Below, piece by piece: positions 4,491 through 34,349 of a stretch of 34,349 bases of DNA; position 1 is the stretch's first letter, and each line of letters starts with the position of its first letter. Under the pieces are notes generated by a model. That model saw only the letters and a list, made by a program, of their open reading frames with translations, ran no database searches and was not told the DNA's origin. The translations under genes were made by a program, and so were the position numbers. The DNA is from an uncultured Nitratireductor sp. (GTDB lineage Bacteria > Pseudomonadota > Alphaproteobacteria > Rhizobiales > Rhizobiaceae): the NCBI RefSeq assembly GCF_913053745.1, contig NZ_CAJXGF010000033.1, positions 1 through 34,349 of the forward strand, read 5' to 3'.

Positions 4491-5972
4491 TTACCACCAT
4501 TGCGCCGGCGCAAAGCGCCCCGCAGACTGTTCGATCACATGCGCGGTTCGGAAAAGCGTTTCTTCGTCGAACGGCTTGCCGATGAGTTGCAGTCCGAGCG
4601 GCAGCCCCTTCGCGTCGAGACCGGCCGGTACGGCAATGCCCGGTAGGCCGGCCATGTTCACCGTCACGGTAAAAATGTCGTTCAGGTACATCTTGACCGG
4701 ATCCGACGCCATGTCCTGATCGGCGACGCCGAAGGCGGCCGACGGGGTCGCCGGCGTCAGGATCGTATCCACGCCCTGATCGAAGACCTGCTCGAAATCG
4801 CGCTTGATGAGCGTGCGCACCTTCTGTGCCTTCAGATAATAAGCGTCGTAATAGCCGGCCGAGAGCACATAAGTGCCGATCATGATGCGGCGCTTGACCT
4901 CGCGGCCGAAACCGGCGGCGCGGGTTTGCTCATACATATCGGCAATGTCCTTGCCAGGTACGCGCAAGCCATAGCGCACCCCGTCATAGCGCGCGAGGTT
5001 CGACGACGCCTCGGCGGGGGCGACGATGTAGTATGCCGGCAGCGCGTATTTGGTATGCGGCAGCGAGATGTCGACGATCTCCGCGCCCGCTTCGCGCATC
5101 CATTCGATGCCCTTTGCCCATAGCGCCTCGATTTCTTCCGGCATGCCTTCCATGCGGTATTCACGCGGTATGCCGATCTTCATTCCTTTGACGGACTGAC
5201 CGATGGTCGCTTCGTAATCCGGCACTGGCAAATCGACGGACGTCGTGTCCTTGCTGTCGACCGAGGCCATGGATTTCAGAAGGATCGCGGCATCGCGCAC
5301 GTCGCGGGCAATGGGTCCTGCCTGATCAAGCGAGGAGGCGAAGGCCACCGTGCCCCAGCGCGAGCAACGGCCATAAGTCGGCTTGATGCCGACTGTGCCT
5401 GTGAAGGCGGCAGGTTGACGGATCGAGCCGCCGGTGTCGGTGGCTGTGGCCCCGGCGCACAGGAGTGCGGCGACTGCGGCGGCCGATCCGCCCGAGGAGC
5501 CGCCCGGCACCAGATCGGCGTTGGAGCCTTCGGCGCGCCACGGATTGATGACCGGTCCGTAATAGGAGGTCTCGTTGGACGAACCCATTGCGAACTCGTC
5601 CATGTTGAGCTTACCGAGCATCACCGCGCCGTCGGTCCAGAGATTGGCCGTGACGGTAGACTCGTATTTCGGCTCGAAGCCGTCGAGAATATGGCTCGCA
5701 GCCTGGGTGTGAACGTCTTCGGTTGCGAACAGGTCCTTGATGCCCAGCGGTATGCCTTCGAGCGGCCCCGCCTCACCCTTGGCGATCCTCTCGTCGCTCG
5801 CCCTGGCCATGGCGCGGGCCTTGTCATGCGTGACGGCGACATAGGCGTTGAGCTTGTCGTTGGCCGTGTCGATGGCCGAAAGATAGGCCTCCGTCAGTTC
5901 GCTGGCGGTAAAAGCCTTGGCGGTCAACTTCTCGCGCGCTTCTGCAATGGTGAGTTTGGTGAGCTCTGTCAT
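4491..5972 (-). CDS. gatA: Asp-tRNA(Asn)/Glu-tRNA(Gln) amidotransferase subunit A
   Basis: 493 residues, the family's normal length. The subunit releases ammonia from glutamine for transamidation of misacylated Glu-tRNA(Gln) or Asp-tRNA(Asn) in the cytoplasm. The amidase-signature triad is intact: K79 (GIPLGIKD), cis-Ser S159 in GGSSGGS (157-163) and the nucleophile S183 in [10 protein letters not shown]; the 24-residue spacing between the serines matches known GatA. It follows gatC on the minus strand after 63 bp. The start at 5972 has only a weak Shine-Dalgarno (GGACT), which fits translation as part of a polycistron. gatB is not in the window. Confidence 0.98.
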
Positions 5973-25596: not shown

Positions 25597-27249
25597 TTAG
25601 AACAGGGCCGCGGTCTTCTGCAGCGTTATCCATACGCCCCACAAGATGGGAATGCCGACGATAGCCCAGGCCAGAAGCGCCTTACCGTCGAATCCGCCTT
25701 TGCCGATTCCGAAGGAACCGGTCGGGCCGGAATCGGCGGCTGCCGACTTTGCTTGAAGTTTGGCGACCTCCTCGTCCGACATGTACCACTTGTCCGAAAG
25801 CGGCTTGACCAGCATGTTGCAGATCAGGCCGAGCAACAGCATGCCGGCGAGGATGTACATGGTGAAGTCGTAGACCTGCTCGCGCGGAATGCCCGCATTG
25901 AGCTGAGCTTCGCGAATGTAATTCACCACGACCGGTCCGATGATACCTGCCGTGGCCCAGGCCGTCAGCAGCCGGCCGTGAATGGCGCCGACAAACTGCG
26001 TGCCGAAGATATCGGCAAGATAGGCCGGCACTGTGGCAAAGCCGCCGCCATACATGGACAGAATGATGCCGAACATCAGGACGAAGAGCACCTGGCTTCC
26101 GATATGCGCGGCCGAGGGCGCGAGCGCGTAGAGGACAATGCCGATGAGGAAGAAGGCGTAGTAGGTGTTCTTGCGGCCGATCCTGTCTGACAGGGACGCC
26201 CAGAAGAACCGACCGCCGATGTTGAACAATGACAACAGACCGGCAAAGCCCGCCGCAATCGCCGCAATGGCCGATTTCTGCGAGGCATCAAGCTGGTTGA
26301 AGGTCAATTCCGGCATTCCGAGCAACCGTCCGCCGAAGATCTCCTGCAACATGGGTGAAGCCATGCCGATCACGCCGATCCCGGCAGACACATTGAGGGT
26401 CAGAACGGCCCAGATCAGCCAGAATTGCTTGGTTTTGTGGGCGTCGCGCAGGTGGACATGGCGCGAGGTAATCATCGACTTCGCGCTCTTTTCCGGTGGC
26501 GTCCAGCCTTCCGGACGCCAGCCCGACGGTGGGATACGGTAGCCGAAGGCGCCCCCCATCATGAATACGAAATAGATTGCGGCCATAACCAGAAATGTCT
26601 GCCAGACGCCAACAGAATCGGCGGTCTTGAACGTGTTCATCAGCATGTCGGCCAGCGGCGCTCCTATCATCGCACCACCCCCAAAGCCCATAATGGCCAT
26701 GCCGGTTGCCATGCCGCGGCGGTCCGGGAACCATTTGATGAGCGTGGAGACCGGCGAGATATAGCCGAGCCCGAGGCCGATACCACCAATCACGCCGGCA
26801 CCGAGCCACATCAACCAAAGTTGGTGGAGCATCACGCCCAACGCGGCGACGGCGATGCCACCGCACCAGCAAAAGGCGGCTACGACACCTGCCTTACGTG
26901 GACCGGCCCGCTCCAGCCAACCGCCCCAGATTGCCGCCGCCGATCCGAGTAACACGAAAAACAGCGTGTAAATCCAGCCGAGATCGGACACGCGCCAGTC
27001 GCAATTGGTGGTGAACAACGCACCGACCAGCGTCATATCCTCGCAAACCACCCTTTGCGAAATGCCGATCGCCTGGGTCAGCGGCAACCAGAAGACGCTG
27101 AAGCCGTAGGCCATGCCGATGCAAAGATGGATCGCCAGAGCCGCCGGCGGAACAAGCCACCGATTGAAGCCCGGCCGGGCGATTATTCTTTCCCTGTCAA
27201 GAATTCCCCCGGCGGGCGCGCCGGATAATGTTTCACTCGCTGCGGACAT
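25597..27249 (-). CDS. OFA-family MFS transporter (oxalate/formate antiporter-like)
   Basis: 550 residues with 12 spans plus an extra C-terminal helix. OFA traits include the long periplasmic loop after span 1 (ISQRVVCEDMTLVG), GLGLGYISPVSTLIKWFPDRRG between spans 4 and 5, and NIGGRFFWASLSDRIGRKN between spans 8 and 9. After a hydrophilic linker (about 490-520) the chain ends with LLAWAIVGIPILWGVWITLQ, like the separately encoded small subunit that accompanies some OFA carriers. Likely substrates are small carboxylates (oxalate, formate, pyruvate, lactate); the exact one is not readable. The start has AGGAGGAG about 6 nt upstream. A sigma-54 promoter with tandem activator dyads precedes it. 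Confidence 0.92.
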   Translation of the reverse strand: MSAASETLSGAPAGGILDRERIIARPGFNRWLVPPAALAIHLCIGMAYGFSVFWLPLTQAIGISQRVVCEDMTLVGALFTTNCDWRVSDLGWIYTLFFVLLGSAAAIWGGWLERAGPRKAGVVAAFCWCGGIAVAALGVMLHQLWLMWLGAGVIGGIGLGLGYISPVSTLIKWFPDRRGMATGMAIMGFGGGAMIGAPLADMLMNTFKTADSVGVWQTFLVMAAIYFVFMMGGAFGYRIPPSGWRPEGWTPPEKSAKSMITSRHVHLRDAHKTKQFWLIWAVLTLNVSAGIGVIGMASPMLQEIFGGRLLGMPELTFNQLDASQKSAIAAIAAGFAGLLSLFNIGGRFFWASLSDRIGRKNTYYAFFLIGIVLYALAPSAAHIGSQVLFVLMFGIILSMYGGGFATVPAYLADIFGTQFVGAIHGRLLTAWATAGIIGPVVVNYIREAQLNAGIPREQVYDFTMYILAGMLLLGLICNMLVKPLSDKWYMSDEEVAKLQAKSAAADSGPTGSFGIGKGGFDGKALLAWAIVGIPILWGVWITLQKTAALF

Positions 27250-27381
27250 AAGTCTCCTCCTCCCGCCGGATTTCCGGCAGCCGTCCTGCTGGTTACTTCT
27301 GTGAAAATTCCCGAACGATGCGATCCGCCGCCCTCCGCGCCGGATACAGCCGGGTCGGGTCCCGGCGATCGAAAGTGTCCT

Positions 27382-27401
27382 CCTCTTGCTCGATCAAGAG
27401 G
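27382..27401 (-). promoter_or_regulatory. Dyad spanning the predicted sigma-54 transcription start
   Basis: CCTCTTG (27382-27388) and CAAGAGG (27395-27401) are perfect inverted repeats around CTCGAT. Relative to the predicted start at 27393 they cover about -8 to +12. This could be an operator for a repressor or the first hairpin of the mRNA leader. A further dyad GCCGGA-TT-TCCGGC lies at 27265-27278, just before the ribosome-binding site. Confidence 0.4.
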
Positions 27402-27404
27402 TAA

Positions 27405-27419
27405 GCAATGGCTATGCCA
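27405..27419 (-). promoter_or_regulatory. Sigma-54 (RpoN) -24/-12 promoter of the OFA transporter gene
   Basis: Read on the minus strand the sequence is TGGCATAGCCATTGC, matching the TGGCAY-N5-TTGC consensus with GG and GC exactly 10 bp apart. The predicted start is 27393, giving a leader of about 144 nt. The adjacent regulator carries the GAFTGA sigma-54 contact motif, and two dyads lie upstream at -86 and -108. No convincing IHF site is seen between them. Confidence 0.82.
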
Positions 27420-27471
27420 AACAGCAGGCAGCAACGATTTCAATGGTTTGCTGATCGATAAACTGGCTCGA

Positions 27472-27486
27472 TGGACATTTTGTCCA
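27472..27486. promoter_or_regulatory. Upstream activator site 1 (perfect 15-bp dyad)
   Basis: TGGACATTTTGTCCA is a perfect dyad of TGGACA and TGTCCA with a 3-bp spacer, centred 86 bp upstream of the predicted sigma-54 start. It is the promoter-proximal of two near-identical sites and is most simply the binding site of the NtrC-type regulator encoded at 29524-30924. Confidence 0.8.
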
Positions 27487-27493
27487 AGGCGAT

Positions 27494-27508
27494 CGGACAT
27501 TTTGTCCG
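27494..27508. promoter_or_regulatory. Upstream activator site 2 (perfect 15-bp dyad)
   Basis: CGGACATTTTGTCCG differs from site 1 only in the outermost base pair, changed on both sides so that symmetry is kept. The centres are 22 bp apart, about two helical turns, which puts two regulator dimers on one face of the DNA. It ends 4 bp before the sensor kinase stop codon. Confidence 0.8.
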
Positions 27509-27512
27509 AAGC

Positions 27513-29531
27513 TTAGCGCGCCTCGGGCAGCCAGATCGTGAAGCACGTGCCTCTACCTGGTTCGCTCTCCGCCGAGATCTTGCCGCCTTGCCGGCTGACC
27601 AATGTCTGGCTGATCGAAAGGCCGAGACCGGTCCCTTCCTGGCGCTTTGTCGTGAAGAAGGGATCGAACACTTTGTCGAGCATTTCATGTGTCATACCGA
27701 TGCCGGTGTCCGAGATCTCGATCACCAATCCGGTATCGCCATCGACATCCTGATCGCGGCTGGAAAGGGACAACGTGCCCCCGTCCGGCATCGCATGAAT
27801 CGCATTCACGATCAGGTTTACGAGAACCTGCTGCAACTCCGTTCTGTTCATCAGCACGAGACGGGTCGCACAGTCATCACGCCGAACTTCGATCTCCGCC
27901 TTGTTGAGGAGATGCTGGACGAGCGGTAGCGTGTCTGAGATCACATCGGCCGGCGTGTGGCGCTCCAGAAAGCCCGCATATTCCTCCGGCTTGGCGAACT
28001 GAAGCAGCTTGGTGACGATCTGACTGATGCGGTGAATCTGCTCGTCCAGCAGCCGAAACTCCGTTCGCGCCTCACGCGCGTGTTCGCCCATTATCTGGCG
28101 CACCACTTCGAGATTGCCCTGCATTACGGCAATCGGATTGTTGATCTCGTGCGCCACGCCGGCAGTGATTTCGCCGATGGCAGCAAGCTTTTCGGACATG
28201 ATCAATTGCCGGGTGGTGGCTTCCAGTTGCCGGTTGGCAAGCCGCAATTCGCGTGTGCGCTCTTCTACCCGCGCATTCAAGGCTTCGTTCCACGCACGCA
28301 ACTGTTTGTCGCGCTCCTGCAACTGCTCGAGAAGCAGATCCAGATGCTGGGCCACGCGGCCGATCTCGTCGTCGACACCGCGAATGCCGGTCCGCGCGCC
28401 CAGATCGCCGCCCTCCACCTTTGAGATCGTGCCGGCCATGCGCTCCAGCGGCTTGAAGATTGATCGGGCCCAGCGCAGAAACAACGGTACGCTCAAGGCA
28501 GTGATTGCGAGAAACGCGACCGCGATCATCGCCAGCGTCGTGTATTTCGCTTCGGTGAACGGCGCTTCAAGGAAGCCGACATAAAGCATGCCGACGCGCT
28601 TGCCGTAACTGTCGGTGATCGGCTCGTAGGCGGAGATGTACCAGTCGTTGACGACGAAAGCGCTATCGAGCCACACACGCCCTTCGCCGAGAACTGCGGA
28701 ACGCACGATGCTCGAAACCCTTGTGCCGAGTGCCCTGCGCCCCTCGAAAAGCCGCACATTGGTGCTGATACGTACATCGTCGAGAAAGAGCGTCGCGGTT
28801 CCCTGGCTACCTTCCGGCAGGCTCGCCTCGCGATAAACCAGATCGTTGATCGTATCGATGAAAACGAGATTTCGGTTGAGAAGATTGCCGCCGACAAGCG
28901 CGGCCGCGCGACCGTCGGCCAGACGAACCGGCGTTGCCGAATGCACGACCATGCCGCGTGTTTCAGCGGCGCGCTTGGTGGGCACCGCGTTGGCCGTCGG
29001 CACCAGATCGAGCCGCGCCCGATCGGCGAGAGCCGGTGCAATCGCAGCAAGTTCCTGATCGGAGAAAATGTCGATGCCCGTGGCCGCCTCTCCAGAAAAC
29101 GCGGTATCGATGATGGGCCAATCGAACCTTGGAGCGCCGGCAAGCCGCGGGGCGGACGTCACGACCGTCCCGCCCTGGGGAACCAGATAAAGAAAATCGA
29201 GATCGAGTGCGCGGCGCTTCTCCTCCAGAAGCGTTCCGAGACCCTCGCCTCCGGCTTCGACCGTATCGCGAAAACGGGCCGACCCTCCCAGAGCCGTCAC
29301 GCGTTCACCGGTGTTCTCGAGCAACCGCGTAAAATATTGATGCGCGATTGTCAGGTCGCCATTGACCTTGGAGATAAGCGCGGCATCGAATTTCGCGTTC
29401 CACCGATAAACGGCCATACCCAGCAGCAGCGGCAAGATAACCAGCGTCGGCAGAAGCGCGATCACCAGTAGGCGGAAGCGAACCGAGCGCCCCTGGCTCT
29501 TGCGCTGCCCGGGCTCTAATCGATCAGACAT
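27513..29531 (-). CDS. Cache-domain sensor histidine kinase paired with the NtrC-type regulator
   Basis: 672 residues from ATG 29531, which overlaps the regulator stop by 8 bp; the longer frame to 29672 is antisense-like and rejected. Order: first membrane helix (about 20-42), a large periplasmic cache-type sensor (about 45-340; ends near YGKRVGMLYVGFLEAPF), second helix (AMIAVAFLAITALSVPLFL), HAMP (LERMAGTISKVEGGDLGART), a coiled-coil (NEALNARVEERTRELRLANR), HisKA with H461 (AGVAHEINNP), and the ATPase domain with N box LVNLIVNAIHAMP, G1 ISDTGIGM and G2 GTGLGLSIS. The layout is DctB-like. It should phosphorylate the regulator encoded just before it. The ligand is unknown; the neighbouring carrier suggests a small carboxylate. 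Confidence 0.94.
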   Translation of the reverse strand: MSDRLEPGQRKSQGRSVRFRLLVIALLPTLVILPLLLGMAVYRWNAKFDAALISKVNGDLTIAHQYFTRLLENTGERVTALGGSARFRDTVEAGGEGLGTLLEEKRRALDLDFLYLVPQGGTVVTSAPRLAGAPRFDWPIIDTAFSGEAATGIDIFSDQELAAIAPALADRARLDLVPTANAVPTKRAAETRGMVVHSATPVRLADGRAAALVGGNLLNRNLVFIDTINDLVYREASLPEGSQGTATLFLDDVRISTNVRLFEGRRALGTRVSSIVRSAVLGEGRVWLDSAFVVNDWYISAYEPITDSYGKRVGMLYVGFLEAPFTEAKYTTLAMIAVAFLAITALSVPLFLRWARSIFKPLERMAGTISKVEGGDLGARTGIRGVDDEIGRVAQHLDLLLEQLQERDKQLRAWNEALNARVEERTRELRLANRQLEATTRQLIMSEKLAAIGEITAGVAHEINNPIAVMQGNLEVVRQIMGEHAREARTEFRLLDEQIHRISQIVTKLLQFAKPEEYAGFLERHTPADVISDTLPLVQHLLNKAEIEVRRDDCATRLVLMNRTELQQVLVNLIVNAIHAMPDGGTLSLSSRDQDVDGDTGLVIEISDTGIGMTHEMLDKVFDPFFTTKRQEGTGLGLSISQTLVSRQGGKISAESEPGRGTCFTIWLPEAR

Positions 29532-30924
29532 TCCAGGCCGCGCATTTGCGGTCGATGGTCTTGCGGGAGATTCCGAGCTGGCGCGCGGCGGCCTCGCGGT
29601 CGCCGCCCACGCGGCCAAGCACAGCGAGGATGTGCCGGCGTTCGATGTCGGCAAGGCTTTCGCCCCCAACACCGGTTTCGGCCATCAAAGGGCCTCCACC
29701 GCCGAAATCGTCGGGAAAACGACCGAGAATGAGGGTGCGTTCGATCAGATTGCGCAATTCCCGTACGTTTCCCGGCCAGGAATAAGTAGCCAGCGCGGCG
29801 CGCGCATCCGTGCCGATGCGCACATCGGGTGTGCCCAACTGCTGCGACAGCTTCGTCATGAACAGATCGGCAAGCTCCTGAACGTCATCGCCACGATCCT
29901 TCAGCGGCGGCAGGTGAATCTGCATCACATTGATGCGGAAGAAGAGATCGGCGCGAAAATGTCCGGCCTCCACCAGTTTCTCAAGTTCCGCATTGGTGGC
30001 GAACACGAAGCGCAGATCGACCGGAATTTCGCGCTCCGAACCCACAGGCCTGATCCGGCGGTCCTCGAGCACCCGCAAGAGCTTGCTTTGCGTCGCGAGC
30101 GGCAACTCCCCGATCTCGTCCAAAAACAACGTGCCGCCCTGCGCGTGCATGAAGAGACCCTCACGGCCCGCTTCCGCGCCGGTAAAGGCACCCTTGAGAT
30201 GACCGAACAGCTCCGTTTCGATCATGTCCGGCGGGATGGCTGCGCAATTGACGGGGACAAACGGTTTGTCCGAACGGTCCGAAAGCGAGTGAAGCGAACG
30301 CGCGGCCACCTCCTTCCCGGTTCCCGATTGGCCAGTCAGCAGAACGGAAGTCGGCAGCGGCGCAACACGCGCAATGGCATCGCGCACGTCGCTGATGGCC
30401 CTGGAACGGCCGATCAGTTTGTCGCGCAGAAGCACATGGTCCGAGGTCGATTTGAGTTCATAGCGCAGAACGTAGTTTTCGCGCTGGAGGCGCATCTGAT
30501 CGAGGCACCGCGCCACGGCATTGAGAAGCTGGTTGGAGCGGAACGGCTTGAGGATGAAATCCACCGCACCGGCGCGCAGCGCCTGTATAGCGGTTTCAAG
30601 GTCCGCATAGGCGGTCATCAGGATTGCATTGGAGAAAAATCCGATGGCGCGTTGCTGGGCGAGCCAGTCGACGCCATTCCTGCCCGGCATGATGTTGTCG
30701 AGAATCACCACATCATAATGGTTGGCGTCGAGCTTCCGTGAAGCTTCTTCCGTATCGGCGGCTTCATCGAGACGCTTGCAACGCGGACCAAGCGTGCGCA
30801 AAAGAAAGTTTCGCATGCCCGGCTCGTCGTCGATCACGAGTATGGAGGCCTGGGCCAGCCACGGACCGAATTCGGGGTCGGCAGCCATGTTCCGCTGCGC
30901 CTTCGCTGCCTGTCCGTTTGCCAT
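29524..30924 (-). CDS. NtrC-family sigma-54-dependent response regulator
   Basis: 466 residues from ATG 30924, preceded by GGAGGAGAACGGGAGGAC. Receiver domain at about 27-140 with phosphoacceptor D76 (VVILDNIMPG) and KPF near 126-128. The AAA+ domain has Walker A TGQSGTGKE (197-205), the sigma-54 contact GAFTGA (245-250), Walker B TLFLDEIGELP, and SWPGNVRELRN. The C-terminal Fis-type helix-turn-helix is DREAAARQLGISRKTIDRK. It activates RpoN-dependent promoters by ATP hydrolysis. The gene overlaps its kinase gene by 8 bp. The likely target is the promoter at 27405-27419 through dyads 27472-27508. Confidence 0.96.
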   Translation of the reverse strand: MANGQAAKAQRNMAADPEFGPWLAQASILVIDDEPGMRNFLLRTLGPRCKRLDEAADTEEASRKLDANHYDVVILDNIMPGRNGVDWLAQQRAIGFFSNAILMTAYADLETAIQALRAGAVDFILKPFRSNQLLNAVARCLDQMRLQRENYVLRYELKSTSDHVLLRDKLIGRSRAISDVRDAIARVAPLPTSVLLTGQSGTGKEVAARSLHSLSDRSDKPFVPVNCAAIPPDMIETELFGHLKGAFTGAEAGREGLFMHAQGGTLFLDEIGELPLATQSKLLRVLEDRRIRPVGSEREIPVDLRFVFATNAELEKLVEAGHFRADLFFRINVMQIHLPPLKDRGDDVQELADLFMTKLSQQLGTPDVRIGTDARAALATYSWPGNVRELRNLIERTLILGRFPDDFGGGGPLMAETGVGGESLADIERRHILAVLGRVGGDREAAARQLGISRKTIDRKCAAWNV

Positions 30925-30995: not shown

Positions 30996-32078
30996 CTACT
31001 CTCCGCCGCCCGCCTGGAAGGATTTGCGCCATTGATCCAGGAAGGCCTTACGTTTGGCTTGATCCAGTCCGACCAGCAGCGCGGGAGAAAGGGCGATGGG
31101 ACGGAAGGCGGCCTCCTCGGCGGACGGGCCGGCGCCGGTATCGATGCGGTTCAGCATTTCCGGGCCGTTGAGCGATGAAAACAGGCGCGACGGCCCCGAC
31201 AACAACCGCTGTCCGGTATCGCTCAGAGCCAAAGCGATCAGGGCGTTTGCCGCCCGTTTGTTGCGCGCGTGACGCGAAACCAGGGCGGCCCGCGAAAGAG
31301 CGAGCGTGTAATCGGACGGAAAAATGATGCCGATACGCGGATCCTCTTCCTGCCGCGCAAGCGCATAAGAACCCAGAACGTTGTAGCCCAGGACCAGTCG
31401 GCCGGTGCGGACGCCCTCGATCACATCGGAACTGCAGCAGAACAGTTGCGCCCGGTTCTGCCCCAGGCTTTCCAGCAGCCGGCCCCAGGTGGAAGCCTGC
31501 GCCGCGTCCTCGAAGGCGAAGATATAGCCGACGCCCGAGCTTTCGATATCATATGTTCCGATGCGGCCGCGAAAGCGTTCGGTCTGACGCAGAAGGTCGA
31601 CCAGTTCGAAACGGTTGCGTGGCACTTCCTCGGGTTTCAAGCCCTCCCGATCATAAACGATAACGGCCGGCTCGAAGGTGAGTCCGACCAGTTCATTGCG
31701 CCAGGCCGCCCAGTCCGGCAAATCCGCTGGCAGGTTGAAGCGAAACGGTTCCGAGCAGCCGTCATTAACGAGGCGAACCTGTTCTGGAATTGCGGATGAA
31801 ATCACAGCGTCCGCGAAAAAATCTCCGGCCTCGCAGGCTTCCGCCACCGCCGCATAGAGATCCAGGCTGGTCATCTGGCGATAAACGACCGCAGTGGTGG
31901 GATTGGCATGCTGAAACTCACGGATGAGCGGCTCGATGAAGATGAGATCGGTCACACTGCCGATAACGAGTGTTTCGGACTTGTCGCCGAGTGCCTCGAA
32001 CATCGTATCTTCCGCCATGGGGCGCCCTGGCAATAAAAGCGTTATGATTACCGAAAGGCCTATGGCTAAGCGTCTCAT
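30996..32078 (-). CDS. Periplasmic solute-binding protein co-encoded with two-component sensors
   Basis: 360 residues. A signal peptide is clear (RRLAIGLSVIITLLLPG, cleavage probably after PMA near residue 22). The mature part resembles iron/PgtC-type extracellular solute-binding proteins (LVIGSVTDLIFIEPLIREFQ, TTAVVYRQMTSLDLY, VLGYNVLGSYALA). No ABC or TRAP permease lies beside it. Its ATG overlaps the stop of the TctE-like kinase gene by ATGA, and it ends 71 bp before the NtrC-type regulator gene with no clear terminator between. It is therefore more likely a sensory receptor for a kinase than a transport component; this is inference. The ligand is unknown. Confidence 0.85.
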   Translation of the reverse strand: MRRLAIGLSVIITLLLPGRPMAEDTMFEALGDKSETLVIGSVTDLIFIEPLIREFQHANPTTAVVYRQMTSLDLYAAVAEACEAGDFFADAVISSAIPEQVRLVNDGCSEPFRFNLPADLPDWAAWRNELVGLTFEPAVIVYDREGLKPEEVPRNRFELVDLLRQTERFRGRIGTYDIESSGVGYIFAFEDAAQASTWGRLLESLGQNRAQLFCCSSDVIEGVRTGRLVLGYNVLGSYALARQEEDPRIGIIFPSDYTLALSRAALVSRHARNKRAANALIALALSDTGQRLLSGPSRLFSSLNGPEMLNRIDTGAGPSAEEAAFRPIALSPALLVGLDQAKRKAFLDQWRKSFQAGGGE

Positions 32079-33484
32079 AAGTATGCGTTTCCCTCTGTCG
32101 CGAGCGGCAGGTCCAGGCTGATGGTGAACGTGCCTTTTTGAGGTTCGAGCACAATCCGGCCATTGTGAAACTCCGCAACCTCTCGCACGATCGCCAATCC
32201 CAACCCCGCGCTTTCCGGTTTGTTGGGATTGATTGCAAAACGTTTTCCGACCTCGGCAGGGTCGCTGGCCGGCAATCCGTCGCCGCGATCGGTGACGGCG
32301 ATGCGCGCTCGCCCTCCCGTCGAGGAGATGGTGACTGCCACGGGCGGTTTTCCGTGCGCGTGGGCATTGTTCAGCAGATTCTTCACCGCCTCTCCCAGGC
32401 TGAACGCATCACCCTGCACCATGACCGGCTCCTCTGGCAGATCGAGCTGGATGCGCAGTTTTCGCCCGCCGGAAAGTTGAACGAAATCACGCTCCGCGCC
32501 GACGGCGATGCGCCGCAGATCCAACGGCTCGAGCGGCGCGGTATCGGCACGATGCGTGACCAGCGCGTGGCTCAGAAGCTGGTCCGTCAGGCGGTTCAGA
32601 CCGATGGCGCGACTACGAATGCGCCGATGGAGCGCTTTCAATCGTTGCGGGTCGTCTTCATCCAGCGCCAATTCACTATGCGCTCTGAGCGCTGTGATAG
32701 AGGTTCGTATCTGATGTGCCGAATCGGCAACGTAGTCCTGCATTGCGCGCACACGCCGATCGAGCCGGCCCATGAAACGGTTGATGGAGGCCACCAGTGC
32801 CGATACTTCGTCCGGCGCATGCATGGAAAAGGGGGATAGGTCGAGCGGGTCGCGCTCCAGGATTGCCGTCTGAATGCGTTCCAATGGGCGCATGGCGTAG
32901 CGCATCGCCAGAAGCGCCAGAACGAGGATGGCAAATCCCGCGCCCGCGATCACGGCAACCGACTGCGTGGCCATGCTGCGGGCCAACTGCTCCCGGCTGC
33001 CGGTGGTATGCGCCACGACAATATAGATGTCGCCGCTCACCGCGCGCTCGGCGAGACGCCTCAGCATGGCGTGGGCACGCACCCTTTCACCGCCGAAATC
33101 GACCTCGTAGGTGAAACCGCCCTCTGGAATATCATCGGCCTTGGGCAGCGGAAAATCATCATCGCCCGTCAGCGTCGTCCCGTCGGGCTGGGTCACGCGA
33201 TAAAAGATACGTTCGTCCTTGGCGAGCGATAAGAGCTCGAACGCCGAAACGGGAATGTCGACGCGCACATCGCCCTCGATGACGAATATGCGTTCCGCGA
33301 TCTGCAGAGCCGCCCCCTGCAGCAAACGGTCGAAGGCCTCGTTTGCCGCCTGCCGGCCATAACCGTAGGCAGCATAGATGGTGGCGGCTACCGCAAGCCC
33401 CAGTACAAGCGTCAGCGAAATGGTCAGGCGATAGGCGATCGACAGACTGCGGCCGGGCGTAGCCTCCCGTCTCGGATTCGTCAT
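32075..33484 (-). CDS. TctE-like sensor histidine kinase (2CSK_N domain)
   Basis: 469 residues. The first membrane helix is at about 18-38, then a periplasmic domain with FDRLLQGAALQIAERI and FYRVTQPDGTTLTGDDDF, typical of the two-component sensor kinase N-terminal domain found in TctE. The second helix is at about 175-197, followed by a HAMP linker and HisKA with H257 (ADSAHQIRTSI, where the usual HQLRTP Pro is Ser). The ATPase domain has VKNLLNNAHAHG, VTDRGDGLP and AGLGLAIVRE. Both ends overlap neighbours by ATGA, so regulator, kinase and binding protein are translationally coupled. Confidence 0.94.
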   Translation of the reverse strand: MTNPRREATPGRSLSIAYRLTISLTLVLGLAVAATIYAAYGYGRQAANEAFDRLLQGAALQIAERIFVIEGDVRVDIPVSAFELLSLAKDERIFYRVTQPDGTTLTGDDDFPLPKADDIPEGGFTYEVDFGGERVRAHAMLRRLAERAVSGDIYIVVAHTTGSREQLARSMATQSVAVIAGAGFAILVLALLAMRYAMRPLERIQTAILERDPLDLSPFSMHAPDEVSALVASINRFMGRLDRRVRAMQDYVADSAHQIRTSITALRAHSELALDEDDPQRLKALHRRIRSRAIGLNRLTDQLLSHALVTHRADTAPLEPLDLRRIAVGAERDFVQLSGGRKLRIQLDLPEEPVMVQGDAFSLGEAVKNLLNNAHAHGKPPVAVTISSTGGRARIAVTDRGDGLPASDPAEVGKRFAINPNKPESAGLGLAIVREVAEFHNGRIVLEPQKGTFTISLDLPLATEGNAYL

Positions 33485-34161
33485 CGACCTCCCGTCTCCA
33501 TCGTTACCGCCTGATAGCCGAGGCCGCGCAACGTGCGGATTTCCAGGCCCGATCCCTCGATTTTGCGGCGCAGACGACCGACATAGAGTTCGACCGCATT
33601 CGGGTTGCGCTCCTCGTCATGTCCGAAGAGACGGACAAGCAGGTCCTCCTTTTCAAGCACCCGGTCCCGATTGGTCAGAAAAATCTCCAAAAGCGTCTGC
33701 TCGCGCCGTGTCAGGTCGCACGGTTTCCCATTGATCAGAACTCGGCGCGCTGCCATGTCGAAGGTGAGTTTCCCCACCGACAGCGTGCGGTCTGCCTCGC
33801 CGCTGCGTCGACGTATGATTGCGCGGATGCGCGCTTCCAGTTCACCGAGATCGAACGGTTTGATCATGTAATCGTCGGCACCCAGATCGAGTGCGTCGAT
33901 CTTTTCGTTAACGGCCAATCGCGCCGTCAAAACCAGGACGGGAACTCTATTTCCCCCGGACCTGAGTTTCTTGAGGAAGGCCATGCCCGACCCATCCGGC
34001 AAGTTGATGTCCAGAACGACCAGGTCGTGATGTGCCATTGCCACGAAGTGCTCGGCGTCTTCCAGAGTTTCTGCACGATCGCTGACATGGCCGGCCTTCT
34101 CGAGCCGTCTTTCGATTGCCTCTGCGACGTCGCGCGTGTCTTCAACGATCAAGAAATGCAT
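33481..34161 (-). CDS. OmpR/TctD-family response regulator
   Basis: 226 residues from ATG 34161 (MHFLIVEDTRDVAEAI); an in-frame TTG at 34173 adds four residues but has no ribosome site. Receiver with phosphoacceptor D51 (DLVVLDINLPDG) and K101 (MIKPFDLGELEARI). The C-terminal winged helix ends NAVELYVGRLRRKI and IRTLRGLGYQAV. It overlaps its kinase gene by ATGA. TctD-type regulators commonly control a divergent substrate-binding-protein or transporter gene, which fits the gene starting at 34331. Confidence 0.95.
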   Translation of the reverse strand: MHFLIVEDTRDVAEAIERRLEKAGHVSDRAETLEDAEHFVAMAHHDLVVLDINLPDGSGMAFLKKLRSGGNRVPVLVLTARLAVNEKIDALDLGADDYMIKPFDLGELEARIRAIIRRRSGEADRTLSVGKLTFDMAARRVLINGKPCDLTRREQTLLEIFLTNRDRVLEKEDLLVRLFGHDEERNPNAVELYVGRLRRKIEGSGLEIRTLRGLGYQAVTMETGGR

Positions 34162-34173
34162 CTTCCCCGACAA

Positions 34174-34190
34174 TGACAGCTTTTTGACAG
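34174..34190. promoter_or_regulatory. 11-bp-period direct repeat in the divergent regulatory region
   Basis: TGACAG occurs at 34174-34179 and again at 34185-34190, a period of 11 bp. OmpR/PhoB-family regulators typically bind tandem half-sites at this spacing. The repeat lies directly upstream of the regulator gene and 140 bp before the divergent gene, so it could serve autoregulation and target control. Confidence 0.4.
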
Positions 34191-34236
34191 GCTAACTCTA
34201 TAGGGTCCGTTCCGCCATGAGAACAATCTCCTTGGC

Positions 34237-34330: not shown

Positions 34331-34349
34331 ATGAAAAAGCTAATCGGCC
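34331..34349 (+). CDS. Start of a divergent gene (first six codons only)
   Basis: ATG at 34331 is preceded by a perfect AGGAGG (34318-34323) with a 7-nt spacer. The visible residues are MKKLIG, which look like the start of a signal peptide. Position opposite a TctD/TctE pair suggests a periplasmic binding protein (TctC-like or ABC type), but the product cannot be identified from six residues. Confidence 0.6.

Follow-up and report, generated by a model that had tools for sequence, protein, structure and literature searches.

Does a secreted solute-binding protein (SBP) encoded in one operon with a response regulator and its sensor kinase feed a transporter, or does it inform the kinase? The question is raised by three minus-strand genes of one operon on contig NZ_CAJXGF010000033.1 of an uncultured Nitratireductor sp.; the window analyzed here is this entire contig (C33, 34349 bases). 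The genes overlap by 4 bases (ATGA) at the regulator/kinase and at the kinase/SBP junction, and they encode the following proteins, with lengths in amino acids (aa).

33481 to 34161, minus strand: OmpR/TctD-type response regulator, 226 aa, with Response_reg (87.5 bits) and Trans_reg_C (64.5 bits) domains; its 3' end overlaps the start of the kinase gene.
32075 to 33484, minus strand: TctE-like sensor histidine kinase, 469 aa, with 2CSK_N, HisKA (H257) and HATPase_c domains.
30996 to 32078, minus strand: secreted, kinase-linked SBP of the 3c9h/MctA family, 360 aa (PDB 3c9h, E = 9e-64; MctA entries, 3e-39 to 1e-37).

We consider it probable that this trio senses a di- or tricarboxylate as a three-component system and turns on a divergent tctCBA importer, with the SBP as a second, sensor-only binding protein. 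The composition of the operon, as put forward in a sequence-only reading of the window (OmpR-type regulator, TctE-like kinase and secreted SBP joined by two ATGA overlaps), was confirmed by domain matches and the coordinates of the open reading frames (ORFs). TctD is the best NCBIfam model for the regulator, at 195 bits and under the model's cut-off of 337. In the kinase, the 2CSK_N domain (PF08521; 116 bits against a cut-off of 23.2), which we take to be a marker of the TctDE/BctDE kinase family, is flanked by two long helices, membrane-crossing by reading; the HAMP match is slightly sub-threshold (24.7 against 25), and H257 shows no variation among 35 kinases. The structure model of the kinase reached a mean predicted local distance difference test (pLDDT) score of 87 and a predicted TM score (pTM) of 0.60; the matches listed in a fold search with it were mostly kinase cores, and none was used for the sensor domain. 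The SBP begins with a hydrophobic, signal-like stretch (by reading) and matches SBP_bac_8, SBP_bac_6 and SBP_bac_11 weakly, barely above cut-off. The closest named genomes belong to Nitratireductor, with the N. aquimarinus counterpart of the SBP being 86% identical.

The conservation of the arrangement was followed in two sets of homologues whose loci were annotated by profile and BLAST. Among 297 genomes of the order, 80, including that of the window, contain SBP homologues at E <= 1e-30, and 83 regions with 84 homologues outside the window genome were fetched (order set); the named set comprises 80 loci with 81 homologues, corresponds to the 80 top-ranking of at least 595 hits to a single conserved motif, and is biased towards close relatives. 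Together they give 165 homologues, in counts that are not independent, as the sets overlap in genomes (e.g., L055 and L213). The SBP gene lies directly downstream of the kinase gene on the same strand (operon-type) in 45/84 and 66/81 cases, 111 of 165 in total, and is fused to it in a further 19 (12/84 and 7/81), and we therefore regard the arrangement in the window as not due to chance; the coupling is conserved across alphaproteobacteria and some gammaproteobacteria. Elsewhere (22/84 and 3/81) a kinase gene is found on the opposite strand, no more than 5 kb away. A second survey covered 150 genomes of the order, that of the window among them. Each of their 38 SBP homologues has a 2CSK_N kinase no more than 8 kb away; conversely, 37 of 55 strong 2CSK_N kinases (>=80 bits) and none of 19 weaker ones have such an SBP at this distance or less; in these counts genomes G000 to G149 of the SBP search are taken as the same 150 as in the kinase search. 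The SBP goes with the kinase, and this type of kinase is not always accompanied by the SBP.

Several features of layout were also recorded. In a group of 23 kinase-near members (L060, L070, L073, L080 and others, some of the window's family) the SBP gene lies on the strand opposite the regulator and kinase genes, and where TctC lies no more than 7 kb away (17 of these loci), its gene and that of the SBP run in the same direction. An AbrB-family (PF05145) gene is present in the fetched stretch of 24 loci (e.g., L082), of which 12 are operon-type, 10 kinase-near and 2 fused.

The fusions carry the argument beyond gene order. All 19 are single open frames of 816 to 875 aa with the SBP at the C terminus, and in all 19 a hydrophobic, signal-peptide-like segment lies between kinase and SBP, which would imply a cytosolic kinase core, then a third crossing of the membrane and a C terminus in the periplasm. 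In five of them (L062, L065, L071, L180 and L209) there is no ATG, GTG or TTG between the kinase core and the hydrophobic segment, and a separately initiated SBP is therefore unlikely there. As an A-x-A motif (a loose pattern) follows the hydrophobic segment in 16/19, as in a retained signal peptide, signal peptidase may cut some of the fusions, releasing kinase and SBP in equal amounts. On a tree of the SBP domains (165 rows, 163 of them different; root not inferred; the contig-edge fragment L120 excluded) 4 changes of the fused label are required, of which starred branches force at least 3, so that fusion has been gained or lost on more than one occasion. The fusion is matched in one piece by eleven Azospirillum plasmid records, seven at 93 to 96% identity and four at 52 to 71%, and where annotated they are called "extracellular solute-binding protein". 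The gene order in A. brasilense MTCC4038 is tctC-tctB-tctA-terC-usp-regulator-fusion. At L267 (NZ_CP032343.1, 2635 to 7526) the fusion is labelled only extracellular solute-binding protein, and genes for a TerC-family protein and a universal stress protein stand between tctA and the regulator gene.

Which transporter, then, belongs to the trio? The sequence-only reading had found no ATP-binding cassette (ABC), tripartite ATP-independent periplasmic (TRAP) or tripartite tricarboxylate transporter (TTT) permease beside the SBP gene. This did not survive inspection of the contig end, which by synteny hides a tctCBA operon: the final 19 bases of the window, ATG AAA AAG CTA ATC GGC C, open a divergent ORF.

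34331 to 34349, plus strand: start of tctC (MKKLIG plus one base), cut by the contig end, with its ATG at 34331 and AGGAGG just upstream; the same start is found in Nitratireductor L155 and L157.

That no permease is seen in the window reflects an assembly edge, because (i) the contig ends 19 nucleotides inside the tctC ORF, (ii) divergent tctC, followed by tctB and tctA, occupies the corresponding place in all four named Nitratireductor loci that were fetched, where TctC starts with MKKLIG twice, MKKLLG and MKKLVG, and (iii) contig C92 of the same genome (18911 bases) holds the rest, ending in a TctC without its N terminus with TctA behind it (508 bits). The reading of the trio as a system with no permease was rejected on these grounds. 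By blastn against L154, the match to the end of C92 stops at base 5413 and that to the window end begins at base 5728, leaving a gap of ~314 bp of tctC, measurable against this locus only; against the other three Nitratireductor loci the window match stops at least 100 bases short of the window end. Synteny, rather than any read across the gap, suggests that C33 and C92 join inside tctC. None of the 141 listed PF00528 ABC permease matches of the genome lies on the window contig; TRAP genes were not searched for.

The same neighbour recurs in relatives. TctA or TctC lies within 7 kb of the SBP in 38/45 operon-type loci of the order set and 60/66 of the named set (98/111), in 12/12 and 4/7 fused loci, in 15/22 and 2/3 kinase-near loci, and in 1/5 and 4/5 loci without a kinase. 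TctC itself is within 7 kb in 92 of the 111 operon-type loci, on the strand opposite the SBP in 87 of these 92. With 7 TctA genes spread over the 4.63 Mb of the window genome, chance alone predicts ~0.02 per 15-kb stretch. A check proposed with the sequence-only reading was whether the trio keeps together in other genomes in the absence of permeases: it mostly does keep together, but in most operon-type loci a TctA or TctC gene stands close by. Since the transporter comes with a TctC of its own that is unrelated to the SBP of the trio, this SBP would be a sensor part.

The family of this SBP bears on the probable ligand. The titles of the MctA entries describe a metal-citrate-binding protein of an ABC transporter, list Mg2+-citrate or citrate as bound, and name the mutants S26A, D28A, S79A, S164A, T199A and Y221A/F. 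Judged by these titles, the six mutated residues probably line the ligand site; in alignments they correspond to V42, D44, S95, S181, S216 and Y238 of the window SBP. D28 and S79 are each kept in 162 of the 165 homologues, S164 in 155 and Y221 in 164, and the T199 position is S or T in 144. MctA and 3c9h (Agrobacterium) share family and fold with the SBP of the trio, with the putative ligand-site residues mostly kept except at the S26 position, and the SBP part of an Aureimonas fusion model superimposes on 3c9h with a TM score of 0.91 by target length. A tricarboxylate is favoured by the kinship with MctA together with the adjoining tctCBA, and the variable S26 position leaves room for other ligands. 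A literature search returned no paper on MctA and none for "3C9H", and the ligand assignment rests on the PDB entry titles.

The region between the regulator gene and tctC contains two elements that could link the trio to the importer.

34174 to 34190, plus strand (that of tctC): TGACAGCTTTTTGACAG, a putative regulator box formed by a perfect TGACAG-N5-TGACAG direct repeat.
34199 to 34204, plus strand: -10-like TATAGG, 8 bp behind the box, part of a candidate tctC promoter.

The sequence CTATAGG also follows the box in the four other Nitratireductor loci. Of the operon loci, 87 have a divergent TctC; the box is perfect in 50 of these 87 and has no more than one mismatch in 64. It is perfect in 2 of the 24 operon loci that lack a divergent TctC, and in 11 of 2600 control chunks drawn at random from the same loci; some of these chunks may themselves overlap the real site. 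We infer that the regulator binds this repeat. On the opposite strand it reads CTGTCA-N5-CTGTCA, which resembles the Pho box. According to the accessible text of one study, TctD and PhoB of Pseudomonas aeruginosa have target promoters in common (PMC4513871).

Taken as observed are the operon, the family assignments, the adjoining tctCBA, the repeat and the kinase fusions in relatives, and on these we base the following scheme. The secreted SBP would catch its ligand, most likely citrate or metal-citrate, in the periplasm; the closed SBP would then dock on the 2CSK_N domain of the kinase, and the kinase would phosphorylate the TctD-like regulator. The regulator would in turn bind the TGACAG-N5-TGACAG repeat, which may stand in place of a -35 element, and would turn on tctCBA.

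Several observations weigh against this scheme. A kinase was not seen for 5/84 and 5/81 homologues (10/165), several of them at contig edges, and TctA or TctC was not seen within 7 kb in 13/111 operon-type and 3/19 fused loci, some with short flanks. Among fused loci the box is uncommon, being perfect in 1/19 (1/8 with divergent TctC and 0/11 without). The position of MctA S26, occupied by V42 in the window SBP, is S in only 37/165 homologues, and the ligand may therefore differ. In the model of the natural Aureimonas fusion (pTM 0.51, mean pLDDT 91, linker 463 to 483 below a pLDDT of 50) the domains fold and their arrangement is not predicted, so that a contact between SBP and kinase is neither supported nor excluded by it. 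To these are added 18 of the 55 strong 2CSK_N kinases of the order, which have no such SBP within 8 kb, and the sensor kinases AgtS and AruS of P. aeruginosa, which, in the accessible part of the source, were not found to be activated by SBPs encoded nearby (PMC11113362).

Three other explanations have to be set against the proposed sensor. The 18 kinases without the SBP show that this kinase type can work without it, and a regulator gene adjoins each of the five that were inspected within ~1.5 kb, a range in which no match to this SBP, TctA or TctC was found. It can accordingly be argued that 2CSK_N senses the carboxylate itself, as in SBP-less TctDE systems, and that the SBP merely tunes the response by buffering ligand or by holding the kinase off when empty; a precedent may be seen in cellobiose, which is perceived by CuaSR without CuaD, with the three-component strain being more efficient, as far as the accessible text reports (PMC10384115). 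We nevertheless hold this to be unlikely, since all 38 SBP homologues in the 150 genomes lie near a kinase and repeated fusion suggests a tie closer than tuning. Were the two proteins operon neighbours only, with an SBP that binds its ligand and never touches the kinase, the AgtS and AruS case would be an apt parallel, and the fusion model, in which the arrangement of the domains is not predicted, would fit as well; against this stand natural fusions at several places in the tree and a coupling conserved across alpha- and some gammaproteobacteria, and it is the least probable of the three.

The remaining explanation is that the SBP feeds a transporter, either an ABC permease encoded elsewhere or the adjoining TctAB, in which it would replace TctC. 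The family does include ABC-linked members, namely L114, one homologue in L117, L121 and one in L227, with permease and ATPase genes behind the SBP gene, and the MctA entries are titled as ABC-transporter proteins; however, the four ABC-linked homologues form one starred clade (97) apart from the other 161 rows. Homologues always lying beside permease genes of their own, which the sequence-only reading had named as speaking against its proposal, were not what we saw: an ABC permease on the same strand and no more than 2 kb away is present in 0/45 operon-type loci of the order set, in 0/19 fused loci and in 2/66 operon-type loci of the named set (L165 and L221), and in these two another ORF (436 and 362 aa; another secreted SBP by reading) precedes the permease. 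With TctC within 7 kb in most operon-type loci in addition, we regard a transport role as quite improbable, and the earlier suggestion that the SBP is tied to the kinase, not to a transporter of its own, gained support from the kinase within reach of every homologue in the 150 genomes, from the fusions and from the separate ABC-linked clade. L117 and L227 each have an SBP-permease-ATPase set and, next to it on the other strand, a regulator-kinase-SBP set, both SBPs being of the same family; such paralogues fit the recruitment of a transporter SBP into sensing, in a direction that the unrooted tree does not show.

The sensor that we favour has parallels in characterized systems. PDB 6lkg, presumably HptA, is among the fold matches. 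In HptRSA of Staphylococcus aureus the SBP serves the kinase and the regulated importer is another gene; that system differs from the trio in its ligand and importer (hexose phosphate and UhpT) and in its kinase type. The comparisons that follow rest on the accessible parts of the cited sources. CuaDSR of Ruminiclostridium cellulolyticum has, like the trio, a second SBP beside a kinase-regulator pair, and the transporter has its own SBP; the second SBP binds the kinase, as proposed here; unlike the trio, it concerns cellobiose and an ABC transporter (PMC10384115). In Bordetella pertussis a TctD/E-type pair, BctDE, is found beside tctCBA-type genes (bctCBA) as in the window, and the periplasmic BctC relays the ligand signal to BctE, as proposed here for the SBP; BctC is the transporter's own TctC-type protein, whereas the trio has a second SBP of another family in the regulator operon, with TctC nearby in most relatives (PMC5812351). 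In Salmonella and P. aeruginosa an OmpR-type regulator, TctD, controls tctCBA, again as proposed here, with Salmonella tctD opposite to tctCBA, like the layout of the window; a third, kinase-linked SBP is not described in those parts of the two sources (PMC5812351 and PMC4513871). P. aeruginosa TctD acts on tctD and opdH-tctCBA (PMC4513871). The relay of a signal from SBP to kinase is already established by BctC-BctE (PMC5812351) and CuaDSR (PMC10384115), and about ten SBP-activated sensor kinases were counted as characterized in 2022 (PMC9602780). What sets the present case apart is a kinase-linked second SBP of a non-TctC family in a system that mostly retains TctC, together with the natural fusions; a literature search, mostly without subscription papers, found no description of this trio or of such fusions.

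Other genes of the window were also considered. Behind the trio, at 25597 to 30921 on the minus strand, lie genes for a sigma-54-type (NtrC-like) regulator, a Cache-domain DctB-like kinase and an oxalate/formate- or L-lactate-type major facilitator superfamily (MFS) transporter, for which the NCBIfam model SfMCT falls slightly below cut-off. This module was rejected as a part of the system: it was detected in 2/4 other Nitratireductor loci, the trio in 4/4. At 2 to 1621 on the plus strand, open at the contig start, is what resembles, by reading only, the C-terminal part of a protein of aminomethyltransferase or dimethylglycine-dehydrogenase type.

To conclude, the window illustrates how a contig end can mimic biological absence, and the A. 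brasilense MTCC4038 fusion, labelled only as an SBP, shows how a kinase can be hidden from readers of annotation. Gene neighbourhood alone has misled before, as the accessible text on AgtS and AruS indicates (PMC11113362); the natural fusions go further than neighbourhood as evidence, and structures of relatives with Mg-citrate bound have been solved for this family. At about even chances in our judgement, these loci represent a widespread and distinct class of TctDE-type systems, with a second, sensor-only SBP that is kin to those of ABC transporters and has repeatedly merged with the kinase into one protein of periplasmic sensor, cytosolic core, third membrane segment and C-terminal periplasmic SBP, some of which may be cut by signal peptidase.

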